Of a stretch of 64,000 nt of DNA, positions 5,516-55,253 are shown in pieces. Under the pieces are notes generated by a model that saw only the letters and a program-made list of their open reading frames with translations, was not told the DNA's origin and searched no databases. The translations under genes and the position numbers were made by a program. Each line of letters begins with the position of its first letter. The first letter of the stretch is position 1. The DNA is from Desulfurobacterium indicum (GTDB lineage Bacteria > Aquificota > Aquificia > Desulfurobacteriales > Desulfurobacteriaceae), in contig NZ_MOEN01000002.1 in the NCBI RefSeq assembly GCF_001968985.1, positions 40,799 through 104,798 on the forward strand, given 5' to 3'.

Positions 5516-5980
5516 TTATTTAAAACTATATGAGACAGTAATTACTGGAAACGGTATAAAGTCGGCTCCGAAAAATTTGCTGAAGAAGTAAACACCTCCG
5601 CCTATGGAGAAAGCTCCGTTTTCTCCCGTAGGATCATCTCCGTTCGGAAGATCGTATTCTATTCCTCCGCCGAAATATGGGTAGATTATTGTTGCCGTTC
5701 CACCTTCAAGGTAAGGATGAACTGCCTGCAATTCGTCGTTTACTGTAAAGTAATATCTGAAACCAAATCCTAGCCCTGCTGTTACACCGTAAAGATATTT
5801 AGGAGCTCCGTTACCGTCTCTTTCCAGCCTTCCTGCAAATATTGTGTCAAGGCCGACACGCCACTGATTTCCTGGTAGATTAATGGTGGTTTGTGTTTCG
5901 TTTTCGGCCGCATAACAGGTTGTGTATAGTGCAGACATGGCTATTAATGTGATAGCTCCTGTGATCAATGCTTTTTTCAT
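5516..5980 (-). CDS. Small outer-membrane barrel-like protein
   Basis: A 154-residue protein with a clear signal peptide (MKKALITGAITLIAMSALY, cleavage near CYAAE). The rest alternates glycine/aromatic-rich strands such as GVTAGLGFGFRYYF and GGGIEYDL. The C-terminus VITVSYSFK resembles a final beta-strand of an outer-membrane barrel. No specific family is recognised. The ATG has a perfect GGAGG upstream. It is divergent from ppsA and precedes hemW by one base. Confidence 0.7.
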   Translation of the reverse strand: MKKALITGAITLIAMSALYTTCYAAENETQTTINLPGNQWRVGLDTIFAGRLERDGNGAPKYLYGVTAGLGFGFRYYFTVNDELQAVHPYLEGGTATIIYPYFGGGIEYDLPNGDDPTGENGAFSIGGGVYFFSKFFGADFIPFPVITVSYSFK

Positions 5981-6016
5981 GATTCCTCCCGTTAAAATAT
6001 TCAGTAAAAGTTATAA

Positions 6017-6044
6017 TTGCATTATAGGACTGTCATACTATAAA
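6017..6044 (+). promoter_or_regulatory. Predicted ppsA promoter
   Basis: TTGCAT (6017-6022), a 16-base spacer and TATAAA (6039-6044) form a plausible housekeeping promoter. It predicts a start of transcription about 12 bases before the ppsA ATG at 6063, so the leader would be very short, with only a run of G residues for ribosome binding. Confidence 0.5.
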
Positions 6045-6062
6045 TATGGGGGGTTTTTGAAA

Positions 6063-8489
6063 ATGGACAATAGAAATGTTCTCTGGTTAAGGGATGTAAC
6101 TTTGAAAGATGTGCACCTGGTAGGAGGGAAAAACGCTTCTTTAGGAGAAATGCTTAACGTTCTTTCTTTTAAAGGAATAAATGTGCCGGATGGGTTTGTG
6201 GTAACGGCTAATGCCTACTTCAGATTTATCGATTTTAATAACCTTCGTGAAAAGATAGAAGAAGTGATAGCTTCCATAGATGTGAAAGATGTTGAGGATT
6301 TGCAGCGCAAAGCCGGTGTTATAAGAGCGCTTATTAGGGAGGGAAAGTTTCCTGAAAAAATGGAGAGGGAAATCCTTAGTTATTATCGAGCGCTTGGTGA
6401 GAAGTATAACATGGAGAATGTAGATGTTGCAGTACGTTCTTCTGCAACTGCTGAGGATCTTCCAGATGCCTCTTTTGCCGGACAACAGGATACTTACCTG
6501 AATATAAAGGGGGAGTCTGCCCTCCTTGATGCAGTTAAAAGATGTTTTGCTTCATTATTTACCGCCAGGGCTATTTCTTATAGAGAAAGTTTTGGATTTG
6601 ATCATTTTAAAGTCGGAATTTCCGTAGGTATTCAAAAAATGGTTCGTTCTGATCTTGGTGCTTCTGGTGTTTGTTTCTCTCTCGATACAGAGACAGGATT
6701 TGAAAATGTTGTTTTGATAACAGGTATTTATGGGCTCGGAGAGTTGATTGTTGGTGGAGAAGTGGTTCCTGATGAATTTCTGGTATTTAAGCCGACTCTA
6801 AAGAAAGGATATAAAGCCATAATAGAAAAGAAGCTGGGAGATAAAGAGAAAAAGCTTATATATACCGATGACGGTGAAGGAACAGTAGTGGATATTGTTC
6901 CAGAGAAAGAGAGAGAAAAGTTTTGTCTTTCAGATGAAGAGGTTTTGAAGCTGGCTGACTGGGTTTTAAAAATAGAGGAGCATTATTCCAATCTTTACGG
7001 TCGCTGGTGTCCGATGGATGTTGAATGGGCAAAGGACGGGATAAGCGGGGAGTTATTCGTGGTCCAGGCTCGTCCTGAAACTGTTCAGTCAAGAAAAGAT
7101 AGAAGTAAATTGACCGTGTATAAAATAGAGCTTTCTCCTGAAGAAAAAAATAAAAAATTACTTCTTAAAGGTACTGCTGTTGGAAGCAAGATAGCATCGG
7201 GAAAAGTGAGGAAGCTTTCCTCTCCGGAAAATGCATCTTCTTTTAATGAGGGTGAAATTCTTGTTGCTGAGATAACTGATCCTGATTGGGAACCTATAAT
7301 GAAAAAAGCTGCAGCTATTATTACCGAAAGAGGCGGAAGAACCTGTCATGCTGCTATTGTTGCAAGGGAACTTGGTGTTCCTGCAGTTGTTGGAGCAAAA
7401 AGTGCCCTTGATGTCTTAGAGAATGGGCAAACTGTGACGGTTTCCTGCGCGGAAGGTAGTGACGGTTACGTTTATGAGGGGGCAGTTCCTTATTCGGTAG
7501 AAGAAGTTGATATCTCTGAAATTCCTGAGGTTAAGACTCCTATAATGTTTAATGTTGCTACTCCAGACAAAGCCTTTGAACTTTCGTTTTTGCCTAACGA
7601 AGGAGTAGGCCTTGCAAGGGAGGAATTCATAATAAATAACTATATAGGAATTCATCCCCTTGCGCTGATCCATTTTGATTTTATTGAAAAAGAGGATTCA
7701 GAAATTGCAGAGTTGATAAAAGAAAAGACATTCGGATATGACAATCCGGTCGATTACTATGTCGATAAACTTTCTTATGGTATTGCCAAAATTGCTGCGG
7801 CATTTTATCCTAAGCCGGTAATAGTAAGATTTTCCGATTTTAAATCTAATGAGTACGCAAACCTTTTAGGTGGATCCCATTTTGAGCCTAAGGAAGAAAA
7901 TCCTATGCTTGGTTGGAGGGGGGCTTCAAGATATTATTCTGAAAAATTTAAAGAGGCTTTTGGTCTGGAGTGCATTGCTATAAAACGTGTCAGGGAAGAG
8001 ATGGGACTTGACAATGTTATTGTTATGATTCCGTTTTGTCGCACTCCCGAAGAGGGCAAGAAAGTGCTGAATGTTATGGAAGAGTATGGCCTTGAGCGTG
8101 GCAAAAACAGCCTTAAAGTTTACGTTATGTGTGAAATTCCGTCCAATGTAATTTTAGCTGAGCAGTTTTCCGAAATCTTTGATGGCTTTTCAATAGGTTC
8201 GAATGATCTGACACAGTTAACGCTTGGTCTTGACAGAGATTCCGAGCTTGTTGCTTCCATATATGATGAAAGGAACGATGCAGTTAAGTTTATGGTTGCC
8301 ACAGTTATAGATAAAGCCAAAAAGCTTGGACGAAAAGTGGGTATATGTGGACAGGCTCCTTCCGATTATCCTGAGTTTGCCGAATTTCTGGTGGAGAAAG
8401 GGATAGATACAATTTCTATTAATCCTGATGCTCTTTTGAAAACAAGAAAGGCTGTGGCTGAAATAGAACGGAAACTGAAGCTGGATTAA
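6063..8489 (+). CDS. ppsA: Phosphoenolpyruvate synthase
   Basis: Converts pyruvate and ATP to PEP, AMP and phosphate; in an autotroph it feeds gluconeogenesis from pyruvate. The frame is open upstream, but the ATG at 6063 gives the family N-terminus (WLRDVTLKDVHLVGGKNASLG), yielding 808 residues. The ATP-grasp N-terminal domain contains VRSSATAEDLPDASFAGQQ. The phosphohistidine domain carries GGRTCHAAIVAREL. The C-terminal TIM barrel has GSNDLTQLTLGLDRD and the catalytic-cysteine region GICGQAPSD. Single gene flanked by its own promoter and terminator. Confidence 0.96.
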   Translation: MDNRNVLWLRDVTLKDVHLVGGKNASLGEMLNVLSFKGINVPDGFVVTANAYFRFIDFNNLREKIEEVIASIDVKDVEDLQRKAGVIRALIREGKFPEKMEREILSYYRALGEKYNMENVDVAVRSSATAEDLPDASFAGQQDTYLNIKGESALLDAVKRCFASLFTARAISYRESFGFDHFKVGISVGIQKMVRSDLGASGVCFSLDTETGFENVVLITGIYGLGELIVGGEVVPDEFLVFKPTLKKGYKAIIEKKLGDKEKKLIYTDDGEGTVVDIVPEKEREKFCLSDEEVLKLADWVLKIEEHYSNLYGRWCPMDVEWAKDGISGELFVVQARPETVQSRKDRSKLTVYKIELSPEEKNKKLLLKGTAVGSKIASGKVRKLSSPENASSFNEGEILVAEITDPDWEPIMKKAAAIITERGGRTCHAAIVARELGVPAVVGAKSALDVLENGQTVTVSCAEGSDGYVYEGAVPYSVEEVDISEIPEVKTPIMFNVATPDKAFELSFLPNEGVGLAREEFIINNYIGIHPLALIHFDFIEKEDSEIAELIKEKTFGYDNPVDYYVDKLSYGIAKIAAAFYPKPVIVRFSDFKSNEYANLLGGSHFEPKEENPMLGWRGASRYYSEKFKEAFGLECIAIKRVREEMGLDNVIVMIPFCRTPEEGKKVLNVMEEYGLERGKNSLKVYVMCEIPSNVILAEQFSEIFDGFSIGSNDLTQLTLGLDRDSELVASIYDERNDAVKFMVATVIDKAKKLGRKVGICGQAPSDYPEFAEFLVEKGIDTISINPDALLKTRKAVAEIERKLKLD

Positions 8490-8493
8490 TTTG

Positions 8494-8521
8494 ACAGGCG
8501 GGTAGCTCCCGCCTGTATTTT
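8494..8521 (+). terminator. Intrinsic terminator of ppsA
   Basis: ACAGGCGGG (8494-8502), loop TAGCT and the perfect complement CCCGCCTGT (8508-8516) are followed by ATTTT. It isolates ppsA from the promoter of the secA unit that follows. Confidence 0.9.
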
Positions 8522-8546: not shown

Positions 8547-8575
8547 TTGACACTTCTCGTTTATTGGTGTATCTT
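8547..8575 (+). promoter_or_regulatory. Strong promoter of the secA leader ORF
   Basis: A consensus TTGACA (8547-8552), a 17-base spacer and TATCTT (8570-8575). The expected transcription start near 8582 is only about three bases before the ATG at 8585, which would make the leader ORF mRNA leaderless or nearly so. This matches the absence of a Shine-Dalgarno sequence there. Confidence 0.65.
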
Positions 8576-8584
8576 TAAACCACC

Positions 8585-8881
8585 ATGAAAAAGTTCAGAA
8601 TTAATACCATTATAGTTGGATTTATATTTTTAACAGTTTTTACCTGCGGTGAAACACCAGCAGAAGTCCTTTCTTCTGTTAACTTTTCCGTTGAGCAGAT
8701 AGAGGTTGTTAATAACAAAAGAGATTTGAAAATTAAATCAGAAAAAAGTGTCTTTTTACCTATTAAGCAACTTTTCAAAGATTATAAAGAAAATTATGGT
8801 TTTTCAGATGTTTACACTCAGTTTTCTTTCTGTTCTTTTGCGATAAAATCCTTGCCTCCCAGAGCTTCTCCGCTTTCTTAA
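8585..8881 (+). CDS. Candidate SecM-type secretion monitor upstream of secA
   Basis: A 98-residue ORF immediately before secA. It begins with a basic then hydrophobic export signal (MKKFRINTIIVGFIFLTVF, possible lipobox-like Cys at residue 21). It ends in FSFCSFAIKSLPPRASP (residues 80-96) plus two residues. Against the E. coli SecM arrest peptide, F80-S81 match F150-S151, F85 lies at the W155 position, and R93, A94 and P96 match R163, A164 and P166, all with identical spacing. SecM stalls the ribosome unless its signal is pulled by the Sec system, raising secA translation. The size, export signal, gene position and C-terminal pattern together suggest the same role. It has a good promoter but no visible ribosome-binding site. 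Function is inferred, not known; an ordinary small lipoprotein is the alternative. Confidence 0.7.
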   Translation: MKKFRINTIIVGFIFLTVFTCGETPAEVLSSVNFSVEQIEVVNNKRDLKIKSEKSVFLPIKQLFKDYKENYGFSDVYTQFSFCSFAIKSLPPRASPLS

Positions 8882-8935: not shown

Positions 8936-11524
8936 ATGATAGATATTGTCCTTACTAAGCTTTTTGGTAGCAAGAACGAAAGAGTTGTTAAAAAAATGAG
9001 GCCTATTGTTGAAAAGATAAACGCATTGGAGCCGGAATTTGAGAAGAAAAGTAAAGAAGAACTTCAAGCTCTTACGGCAAAGTGGAGAGAAGAGCTTTCA
9101 AAAATAAAAGATGCGAAAGAGCAATTTAAGTATATGGATAAGATTTTACCTGAAGCTTTTGCAGCAGTTCGTGAGGCAGCAAAAAGAACTTTAGGTATGA
9201 GACATTATGATGTTCAGCTTATAGGTGGTATGGTCCTTCATCAGGGGAAGGTTGCCGAAATGAAAACAGGTGAAGGGAAGACCCTTGTTGCTACGCTTCC
9301 TGTATATTTAAATGCACTTGCCGGAAGAGGCGTTCACGTTGTTACAGTTAACGATTACCTTGCCAAGAGAGATGCCGAATGGATGGGACCTGTTTATAAC
9401 TATCTCGGTATAACGGTTGGCTATCTCCAGAACAATATGGAGAAACCGGAAAGAAAAGAGATGTATATGAAAGATGTAACTTATGGAACGAACAGTGAGT
9501 TTGGATTTGATTATCTCCGTGATAACATGGCGTTTTCAAAAGATGAGAGAGTACAGAGGGATCTTTTTTATGCGATAGTTGACGAGGCAGATTCTATTCT
9601 TATTGATGAGGCTAGGACGCCGCTTATTATTTCTGGACCTTCAGAAGAAAATGTCGATATCTATTACATAGCAGATTCTATTGTTAGACAGCTGAAAAAA
9701 GAAAAACATTTTACGGTTGATGAGAAAAACAAGACAGCTGTTTTAACCGATGAAGGAATCAGGGAAGTTGAAAAGATAGTTAGTAAAATGACGGATATAA
9801 AGGACTTTAACCTTTATGACCCTAAATTTGCCGATCTTCTTCACGGTATTATCCAGTCTTTGAGAGCTCATCATTTGTTCAAAAGAGATGTGGATTATGT
9901 TGTAAAAGATGGGAAGGTGATCATAGTTGATGAATTTACTGGAAGAATAATGCCGGGGAGACGCTGGAGCGATGGACTCCATCAGGCGGTAGAAGCGAAA
10001 GAGAAAGTAAAAATAGAAGCAGAAAACCAGACACTTGCGACTATAACCATTCAAAACTATTTCCGTCTATATAAAAAACTTGCCGGAATGACGGGAACTG
10101 CCGAAACGGAAGCGGCTGAACTTAAAGAAATCTATGGACTTGATGTTGTTGTTATTCCGACTAATAAGCCTGTTATAAGAAAAGATCATCCGGATGTTAT
10201 TTACAAGACAATGAAAGCCAAGTATGATGCTGTTGTTAAGGAAATTGAGAAGAACTATAAAGTGGGAAGACCTGTTCTTGTTGGGACCAACTCTATTGAG
10301 GCTTCTGAGTATCTTTCAATGCTATTAAAGAAAAAGGGTATTCCTCACAACGTTCTTAATGCCAAGTATCATGAAAGAGAAGCCGAAATCGTTGCTCAAG
10401 CGGGGCGGCTCGGAGCTGTTACGATAGCTACAAACATGGCTGGTCGTGGAACGGATATTCTGCTTGGTGGTAATCCGGAATACATGGCAAAACAGGAGCT
10501 TAAAAAGCGTGGAATAACGCCAGAGAAAGTCGGTGAAGAGAAATATGAAGAGCTGCTAAAAGAAGAGACGGAAAAATTCAGAAAAATAACGGAAGAAGAA
10601 AAGAAAAAGGTAATAGAACTTGGCGGACTTTATATTATTGGAACGGAGAGAAACGAAGCTCGCCGTATAGATAACCAGTTAAGAGGTCGTGCAGGAAGAC
10701 AGGGAGACCCGGGAGAATCAAGATTTTTCCTTTCTCTTGAAGATGATCTTTTAAGGTTGTTTGGTTCTGACAGAATTAAGAAATTAATGGAAATGATGAA
10801 TGTTCCCGATGATGAGCCTATAACTCACAAGATGGTTTCAAAGGCTCTTGAAAATGCCCAGAAACGTGTTGAAGATCAGAACTTCCAGATAAGAAAGAGG
10901 CTTTTAGAGTATGACGAAGTTTACAACGTTCAGAGGAAGGTAATCTATGAGCAGAGAAACAAGCTCCTTGACGGAGAAGATTTCAAAGAGGATATTCTCT
11001 ATATGATTGAAGAAGTTGTCTGGAAGCTTATAGATCTTTATGCTCCTGAAAATATTGTTCCTGACGAGTGGGATTTTGAAGGTTTGAAAAAGGCGCTGGA
11101 ATTACGTTTCGGCCTTGAATTTGTTATTCCGTCATCATTTAAAGAGCTTATGGAAATGAAGGTTGAGGGGGCGGTTGACGAGAGAGATAAGCTGTTCCAT
11201 CTGATCTATGACAGGCTCGTTAAAGAGTATGAGGAAAAAGAGAAACTTATAGGTAGCCAGCAACTCAGAGAAATAGAAAGGCTAATAATGCTTCAAACGC
11301 TTGATCATTACTGGAGACAACACCTGAGGGCTCTTGATCACATCAAGGAGAGTATCGGATGGAGAGGATATGCTCAGAAAGATCCGATTGTTGAATTCAA
11401 GAAAGAGGCGTTTATCCTGTTTGAGGAGCTTATTTCTAACATAGAGGATGCTACGGTTGACGGTATATTTAACTACTTCAAATATGTGGAAAGCCAAATG
11501 GAGCAAAATGAAAATAAGGCCTGA
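8936..11524 (+). CDS. secA: Preprotein translocase ATPase SecA
   Basis: The motor that drives unfolded preproteins through SecYEG. At 862 residues it is normal for the family. The Walker A motif MKTGEGKTLVATLP, the DEAD-like DEADSILIDEARTPL segment, the preprotein-crosslinking region and motif VI (QLRGRAGRQGDPGES) are all present. The C-terminus ends MEQNENKA and lacks the cysteine-rich zinc tail that binds SecB in many Proteobacteria. AGGAGG lies six bases before the ATG. It follows the SecM-like ORF by 54 bases and is probably co-transcribed with it. Confidence 0.98.
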   Translation: MIDIVLTKLFGSKNERVVKKMRPIVEKINALEPEFEKKSKEELQALTAKWREELSKIKDAKEQFKYMDKILPEAFAAVREAAKRTLGMRHYDVQLIGGMVLHQGKVAEMKTGEGKTLVATLPVYLNALAGRGVHVVTVNDYLAKRDAEWMGPVYNYLGITVGYLQNNMEKPERKEMYMKDVTYGTNSEFGFDYLRDNMAFSKDERVQRDLFYAIVDEADSILIDEARTPLIISGPSEENVDIYYIADSIVRQLKKEKHFTVDEKNKTAVLTDEGIREVEKIVSKMTDIKDFNLYDPKFADLLHGIIQSLRAHHLFKRDVDYVVKDGKVIIVDEFTGRIMPGRRWSDGLHQAVEAKEKVKIEAENQTLATITIQNYFRLYKKLAGMTGTAETEAAELKEIYGLDVVVIPTNKPVIRKDHPDVIYKTMKAKYDAVVKEIEKNYKVGRPVLVGTNSIEASEYLSMLLKKKGIPHNVLNAKYHEREAEIVAQAGRLGAVTIATNMAGRGTDILLGGNPEYMAKQELKKRGITPEKVGEEKYEELLKEETEKFRKITEEEKKKVIELGGLYIIGTERNEARRIDNQLRGRAGRQGDPGESRFFLSLEDDLLRLFGSDRIKKLMEMMNVPDDEPITHKMVSKALENAQKRVEDQNFQIRKRLLEYDEVYNVQRKVIYEQRNKLLDGEDFKEDILYMIEEVVWKLIDLYAPENIVPDEWDFEGLKKALELRFGLEFVIPSSFKELMEMKVEGAVDERDKLFHLIYDRLVKEYEEKEKLIGSQQLREIERLIMLQTLDHYWRQHLRALDHIKESIGWRGYAQKDPIVEFKKEAFILFEELISNIEDATVDGIFNYFKYVESQMEQNENKA

Positions 11525-55176: not shown

Positions 55177-55253
55177 TGGCGCGCCTGGCGGGATTCGAAC
55201 CCGCGACACCAGGATCCGGAGTCCTGGGCTCTATCCAGCTGAGCTACAGGCGC
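55177..55253 (-). tRNA. tRNA-Arg (anticodon CCG)
   Basis: The minus strand folds into a complete cloverleaf. The acceptor stem is GCGCCTG/CAGGCGC, the D-loop region TAGCTCAGCTGGATAGAGC, and the anticodon stem CAGGA/TCCTG encloses loop CTCCGGA with anticodon CCG. The T arm contains GGGTTCGAATCCC. Discriminator G and the CCA end are encoded. It is antisense between purF and ftsL. Confidence 0.97.

Follow-up and report, generated by a model that had tools for sequence, protein, structure and literature searches.

Directly upstream of secA in Desulfurobacterium indicum lies a small upstream open reading frame (uORF), which was analysed in the context of the window, meaning the whole 64,000-nucleotide stretch of DNA. 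The C-terminal end of its product is FSFCSFAIKSLPPRASPLS, which finishes in PPRASP followed by LS, and 54 nt separate the uORF stop from the secA start (Table 1). A 98-residue ORF at this place, its terminal sequence and the positions of F80, S81, F85, R93, A94 and P96 had been described in the first-pass annotation, correctly in every detail. Pfam matched no domain in the uORF product. Its N-terminus, hydrophobic as judged by eye, is kept in relatives. Cys21, with which the hydrophobic stretch ends, is retained in at least 90% of the 19 members of our alignment (A1); the residues around it form no clear lipobox.

The gene preceding the uORF encodes a PEP-utilising enzyme (5922–8489). Just 3′ of it, a perfect 9-bp inverted repeat (ACAGGCGGG-TAGCT-CCCGCCTGT, 8494–8516) is followed by ATTTTG; it is likely a terminator and is absent from the output of our consensus scan. 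At the gathering threshold, Rfam matched nothing between 8400 and 9200, and the sole RNA gene found in the whole window, both by ARAGORN and by Rfam (gathering threshold), was a tRNA-Arg (CCG) at 55177–55253.

Table 1. Features of the uORF–secA locus, in window coordinates (SD, Shine-Dalgarno).
Feature	Position	Strand	Basis or remark
Predicted promoter, TTGACA-N17-TATCTT, with 9 nt between its end and the uORF ATG	8547..8575	+	Consensus scan
uORF of secA, 98-aa predicted arrest peptide	8585..8881	+	ATG at 8585, stop TAA at 8879-8881
Putative export signal, residues 1-22 (MKKFRINTIIVGFIFLTVFTCG)	8585..8650	+	Basic start and hydrophobic stretch, judged by eye
Candidate SD-sequestering arm, GCCTCC, within the predicted stalled-ribosome footprint	8854..8859	+	Best duplex with the SD region
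Arrest core codons P91-P92-R93-A94-S95-P96	8855..8872	+	Conservation
Predicted stall, S95 in the P site and P96 in the A site	8867-8869 (S95), 8870-8872 (P96)	+	Register inferred from published RQH toeprints
secA SD, perfect AGGAGG, 6 nt before the start codon	8924..8929	+	Sequence
secA, 862 aa, presumed regulated gene	8936..11524	+	Pfam SecA_DEAD, P-loop_SecA, SecA_SW, SecA_PP_bind

Searching 61 related genomes with the uORF protein revealed counterparts in the window's genus and family, the Desulfurobacteriaceae. The family is represented by 22 genomes, three of which (G012, G015 and G021) were left out, SecA being either not found or present only as a C-terminal piece. The uORF occurs at 18 of the 19 readable secA loci, as 17 complete copies and one (G019) that is cut by a contig end and still shows PPRASP. 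The script that collected upstream ORFs kept those with RA[SPG]P only, and G010 was the sole readable family locus without one. When the 17 complete uORFs are anchored on the Arg, the R, the A and the final P are invariant, although these three residues are encoded by 5, 4 and 4 different codons, respectively. The third motif residue is Ser in 15 copies and Pro in two, both from the window's genus. Proline precedes the Arg at −2 in 15/17 and at −1 in 13/17. The context that recurs more broadly is S-x-P-P ahead of the Arg (S at −4, prolines at −2 and −1); many members from other genera also carry K at −11, R at −7 and F at −6.

Mean pairwise identity, measured without gaps and anchored on the Arg, was 0.86 in the six motif residues versus 0.11 at positions −50 to −16. 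When 5.8 billion proteins were searched with a profile, 33 homologues were returned, including the window's own and overlapping with the genome set; counted by sequence and irrespective of secA linkage, all 33 end in RASP plus 0–4 residues and carry P at −2. At the DNA level, a pattern coding for PPRASP occurred exactly once, at secA, in nine of the 14 family genomes searched. Three matches in G011, where the reversed control also gave three, and one in G026 all lay away from secA.

The window genome (G000) and G001 form the closest pair, with SecA 97% identical. Between the two, none of the six PPRASP codons (91–96) is identical and all six changes are synonymous. By comparison, the 56 codons of the middle (24–79) comprise 5 identical, 10 synonymous and 41 nonsynonymous ones; codons 1–23, which cover the putative export signal, show no nonsynonymous change. 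Because the motif codons have all changed synonymously while most of the middle has changed nonsynonymously, selection acts on the amino acids and not on the DNA. The uORF thus encodes a real, selected peptide, whose end is under strong selection at the amino-acid level and whose middle drifts freely.

The one exception in the family, G010, has a readable secA start without the uORF, which is probably a natural loss; not every member of the family therefore needs the uORF. At this locus (L043), inspection by eye shows a promoter-like TTGACT...TAGTTT shortly upstream of secA, with AAGGGGG in the usual SD place. In the sister family f2, the uORF was absent from G022, the one readable genome (in G023 the sequence stops 27 nt upstream of secA). 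A further 37 secA upstream stretches came from two other families of the class, and in the 35 of useful length no ORF of at least 40 aa that ends within 260 nt of secA terminates in RA[SGP]P. Two matches to a looser pattern in other families of the class were rejected, both being QSPP in the low-complexity tails of ORFs of 188 and 225 aa. In the window genome, no similar ORF of at least 45 aa lies between secD or yidC (L117, L118) and the respective preceding gene. A third Pfam match of SecD/SecF type (L119) looks like an RND transporter by eye.

The scan that gave the promoter in Table 1 returned two promoter-like sites in the region, against 1.5 expected in shuffles. Across the complete uORFs, a TTGACA-like box (exact in 11), a 17-nt spacer and a TAnnnT box ending 6–9 nt before the start codon are found in 12 of 17, compared with a mean of 0.09 and a maximum of 2/17 in 2000 mononucleotide shuffles; the genomes are related, so that the 12 do not count as independent. 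Within 20 nt of its start, the uORF has an SD match of at most 4 of 6 positions in 16/17, and the SD of secA scores 5 or 6 of 6 in all 17. On sequence grounds, the uORF is thus predicted to head the mRNA almost without a leader, with secA following behind a strong SD. The genus g7 (L050, L053, L054 and L055) lacks a visible promoter of this type, and there the start of the uORF and the stop of the gene before it overlap by 1–4 nt, which suggests translational coupling in place of a promoter of its own. That preceding gene is of metallo-beta-lactamase fold, assigned by Pfam for L050 only.

The likeness to SecM listed in the first-pass annotation was examined residue by residue. SecM arrests at F150xxxxWIxxxxGIRAGP166 (PMC12992588, PMC10987492). 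The window protein matches its F, R, A and P at the same spacing and has F85 at the position of W155, as the first-pass annotation had noted, but it ends in RASP and has neither the W and I nor the G and I of that sequence. We take S81 to be the counterpart of S151 of SecM. When the proposed pattern F-x4-[FW]-x7-R-A-x-P was followed through the relatives, RAxP was kept and both phenylalanines were not. The window protein alone, among the 33 homologues and likewise among the 17 genomes, has Phe at the F80 position (−13 from the Arg). Phe at the F85 position (−8) is shared by 5/33, namely the window protein, three Desulfurobacterium sp. entries and D. thermolithotrophum. Phenylalanines at these positions not being conserved, F80 and F85 were rejected as tunnel contacts in the sense of a family feature.

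The remainder of the protein had been called unrelated to SecM, and profile searches agree: none of the 19 uORF members matched a SecM model in NCBIfam or Pfam, libraries that we take to contain one. Weak matches of single members in A1 (best E 0.0018 and 0.002) vary between members and were taken as chance. In common with SecM of E. coli, the window ORF is a uORF of secA that ends in R-A-x-P, with a putative export signal, and the regulatory logic proposed for it is the same. It differs in having RASP for RAGP, in lacking equivalents of W155, I156, G161 and I162, in carrying S-x-P-P before the Arg instead, and in that no sequence homology is detected by Pfam and NCBIfam profile matching. Since the F80 and F85 match outside RAxP is not conserved, we classify the uORF product as a RAPP-like 'RQH' arrest peptide and not as SecM, and the residue match outside R-A-x-P is mostly coincidence.

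A survey of 30,175 genomes used RASP among its query motifs, taken from uORFs that clustered with SecM (Fujiwara et al., 2024, PMC10987492), so that R-A-S-P, put forward in the first-pass annotation as a variant end, had already been in print. The same survey named and tested a group called uA_RQH_Desulfurobacteriales, whose representative stalled efficiently in Bs PURE, with B. subtilis ribosomes, and less so in Ec PURE, with those of E. coli; its arrest indexes in vivo were low in either host (PMC10987492). For toeprinted RQH members, the stall is stated to have placed residue three of the motif in the P site in all cases, and for uA_RQH_Bacteroidales_2 the paper reports no such signal with E. 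coli ribosomes (PMC10987492). Induction of the downstream gene is demonstrated there for one Alteromonas peptide and not for uA_RQH_Desulfurobacteriales (PMC10987492). Our literature search for Desulfurobacteri* with 'arrest peptide' returned this paper only.

The window ORF shows several of the features by which RQH peptides are recognised. It is a small uORF (98 aa, no Pfam match) directly upstream of secA, one of secA, secDF and yidC; its C-terminal RAPP-like motif is conserved among homologues, with RA[SP]P in every complete uORF; and about 70 residues, more than the 30 called for, separate residue 22, the end of the signal as placed by eye, from S95. The secretion signal or TM segment that RQH peptides carry at the N-terminus would correspond here to the putative signal in Table 1. 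It is also, as the group's name implies, a RAPP-like secA uORF from the order Desulfurobacteriales. It shares with the published group the order, the position before secA and the motif class, and the toeprinted consensus permits Ser as the third residue (PMC10987492). Very probably, then, the window uORF belongs to the uA_RQH_Desulfurobacteriales family. The earlier claim of an arrest peptide upstream of secA outside the proteobacteria is supported in Desulfurobacteriales of the Aquificota, where the C-terminus is selected and the order's group stalls in published assays; the arrest-peptide reading is very likely correct, but for the group it is already in print, and for that reason the surprise is modest. 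The main-text passages of the survey covered here do not describe SD pairing, a leaderless start or a switch between RASP and RAPP for this group (PMC10987492).

Such a switch is found within the window's genus, where G002 and G003 have RAPP, the motif of ApdA and ApdP, in the position of RASP. These two lack prolines before the Arg (YS-RAPP and LS-RAPP), and P at −2 is kept in all 15 complete RASP uORFs of the genome set. Arrest by RAPP and RGPP is reported to occur behind a variety of upstream sequences (PMC12992588). A weaker RASP core may lean on the preceding prolines in a way that RAPP does not, as the comparison with these two related genomes would indicate.

More generally, the window uORF resembles ApdA and ApdP (RAPP) and ApcA (RAPG) in its R-A-[S/P]-P core, which lies close to the C-terminus of a small, putatively exported protein encoded before a Sec or YidC gene. 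ApdA is placed before secDF. It is actinobacterial, ApdP precedes secDF in Alphaproteobacteria and ApcA precedes yidC (PMC10987492). All three differ from the window uORF in the downstream gene, and the upstream context is probably unrelated.

For SecM, stalling opens a hairpin in which the SD of secA is concealed. In the window uORF, a ribosome stalled with S95 in the P site was assumed to cover approximately Arg −9 to +22 nt, and the probability that this footprint pairs with the SD of secA was compared with that in synonymous shuffles. For RNA ending at the secA start codon, at 37 °C, the mean over 18 genomes was 0.76 versus 0.48 in shuffles (0/150 as high); with the same RNA end and temperature, the mean without genus g7 was 0.71 versus 0.46 (again 0/150). 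When 33 nt of secA were included, the 18-genome mean was 0.68 versus 0.45 in shuffles at 37 °C, and 0.70 versus 0.47 at 65 °C (0/100 as high). The point at which the RNA is cut matters, the 18-genome mean ranging from 0.55 to 0.77 over 16 settings, with 11–16 of the 18 genomes at 0.5 or above; in five, pairing was 0.25 or less at 37 °C with 33 nt of secA included. With g7 included, duplex energy exceeded synonymous shuffles by a large margin; when g7 was left out the excess was modest, 2% of shuffles being equally strong. Cognate arms paired better than permuted ones, with z −4.0 over the 18 genomes and values of 0.064, 0.048, 0.005 and 0.010 in four hand-picked sets of one genome per genus.

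At the window locus itself, pairing in RNA ending at the secA start codon was 0.74 against a shuffle mean of 0.77, and 33% of synonymous shuffles had as strong a duplex. With 33 nt of secA the SD pairs with early codons of that gene, which brings the value down to 0.02 (37 °C) and 0.45 (65 °C). Genus g1, to which the window belongs, had a pairing probability of 0.66 versus 0.56 in shuffles, of which 25% were as high, and a duplex energy weakly above shuffles (4% as strong). In G003, values were 0.00–0.13 over eight settings at 37 °C and 0.24–0.71 at 65 °C.

In all five readable genomes of the six in genus g7 (G009, G014, G017, G019 and G020), a stem of 11–14 bp with the SD and its spacer is possible. 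Its arm runs from the last base of the Arg codon through the codons for Ala, Ser and Pro into the bases that follow, and pairs have changed on both sides at Arg +2 (G-C to A-U) and Arg +8 (A-U to C-G). G009 needs a bulge in this stem, and its predicted fold uses only part of it. What is new here is that footprint codons across the family pair with the secA SD above synonymous shuffles, and that in g7 the arrest codons themselves can form the lock. The step in which the SD is locked is thus supported for the family as a whole and unproven for the window locus, where pairing is no stronger than chance.

The uORF represents a genuine SecA-linked arrest-type peptide, very likely with the role of a secretion monitor. 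We are fairly confident in the overall reading, namely that an end conserved before secA across the Desulfurobacteriaceae is RAPP-like (RQH) and not SecM, and that the predicted stall with Ser95 in the P site would raise SecA when export is slow. The putative N-terminal signal would bring the nascent chain to the translocon, and the ribosome, holding Ser95 in its P site, would stay stalled on the uORF for as long as the export machinery does not pull. Pulling by active SecA/SecYEG would release the stall; under slow export the stall would persist and SecA synthesis would go up. The stalled ribosome may do this by covering codons otherwise paired with the secA SD, thereby freeing secA, a step for which the support lies at the level of the family and not of this genome.

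The last step could also be dispensed with. An arrest peptide might tune secA by another route, in which the halted ribosome shields the mRNA, keeps polarity from setting in or couples translation to secA, and no SD hairpin is involved. We regard this as rather unlikely, even though pairing in the window's genus does not rise above synonymous shuffles and is almost nil in G003 at 37 °C; the family-wide excess over shuffles holds with and without g7, cognate arms beat permuted ones, duplex energy in the window's genus is weakly positive and G003 recovers some pairing at 65 °C. A more radical departure would be that the product is a functional exported small protein, the C-terminus of which matters after synthesis, for binding or processing, and whose linkage to secA is incidental. 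The conserved N-terminal hydrophobic stretch and the near-invariant Cys21 would fit such a protein, but the middle is without conserved sequence, the window protein has no Pfam domain, and conservation stops at RA[SP]P near the stop codon, a known type of staller. Moreover, the uORF stays with secA while the preceding gene varies, from the PEP-utilising enzyme in the window to the metallo-beta-lactamase-fold gene in L050. This explanation is accordingly very improbable.

Least probable of all, to the point that we rejected it, is that the uORF derives from SecM, either as a true orthologue or through transfer from proteobacteria. Its position upstream of secA, the RAxP end and the presence of F80, S81 and F85 at SecM spacing in this one species speak for such an origin, against which stand the missing family match and the lack of conservation of F80, F85 and the SecM-specific residues. 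The named homologues, a minority of the 33, all come from Desulfurobacterium, Thermovibrio, Phorcysia or Balnearium, the last three of which we take to be genera of the Desulfurobacteriaceae.

If the secretion-monitor reading is true, a nascent peptide monitors secretion in a lineage distant from the proteobacteria, a task for which enterics use an unrelated protein. The family would also serve as a comparative test bed, with a RASP/RAPP switch in one genus, one relative without the uORF and, in g7, arrest codons able to form an SD lock. A tentative extension, which we think possible though more doubtful than not, is that the motif is dual-coded: the same 12–15 nt would act as a sensor, through the peptide Arg-Ala-Ser-Pro, and as a lock, through the RNA arm on the secA SD, opened by the stalled ribosome that sits there. 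Were this so, RAPP-like motifs would supply ready-made SD locks through their proline codons, CCU-CCU being complementary to AGGAGG, which could partly explain the repeated rise of proline-ended arrest motifs before sec genes.

Two further observations concern the secA upstream regions of other families. In family f3 (L076–L087), a gene resembling that for signal peptidase II (lspA) precedes secA in 9 of 12 stretches by eye, confirmed by Pfam for L077 only. In family f4 (L101, L102, L107, L109 and L111), several secA genes have, by eye, a TATAAT-like box a few bases before the ATG, which suggests that their secA transcripts are leaderless.
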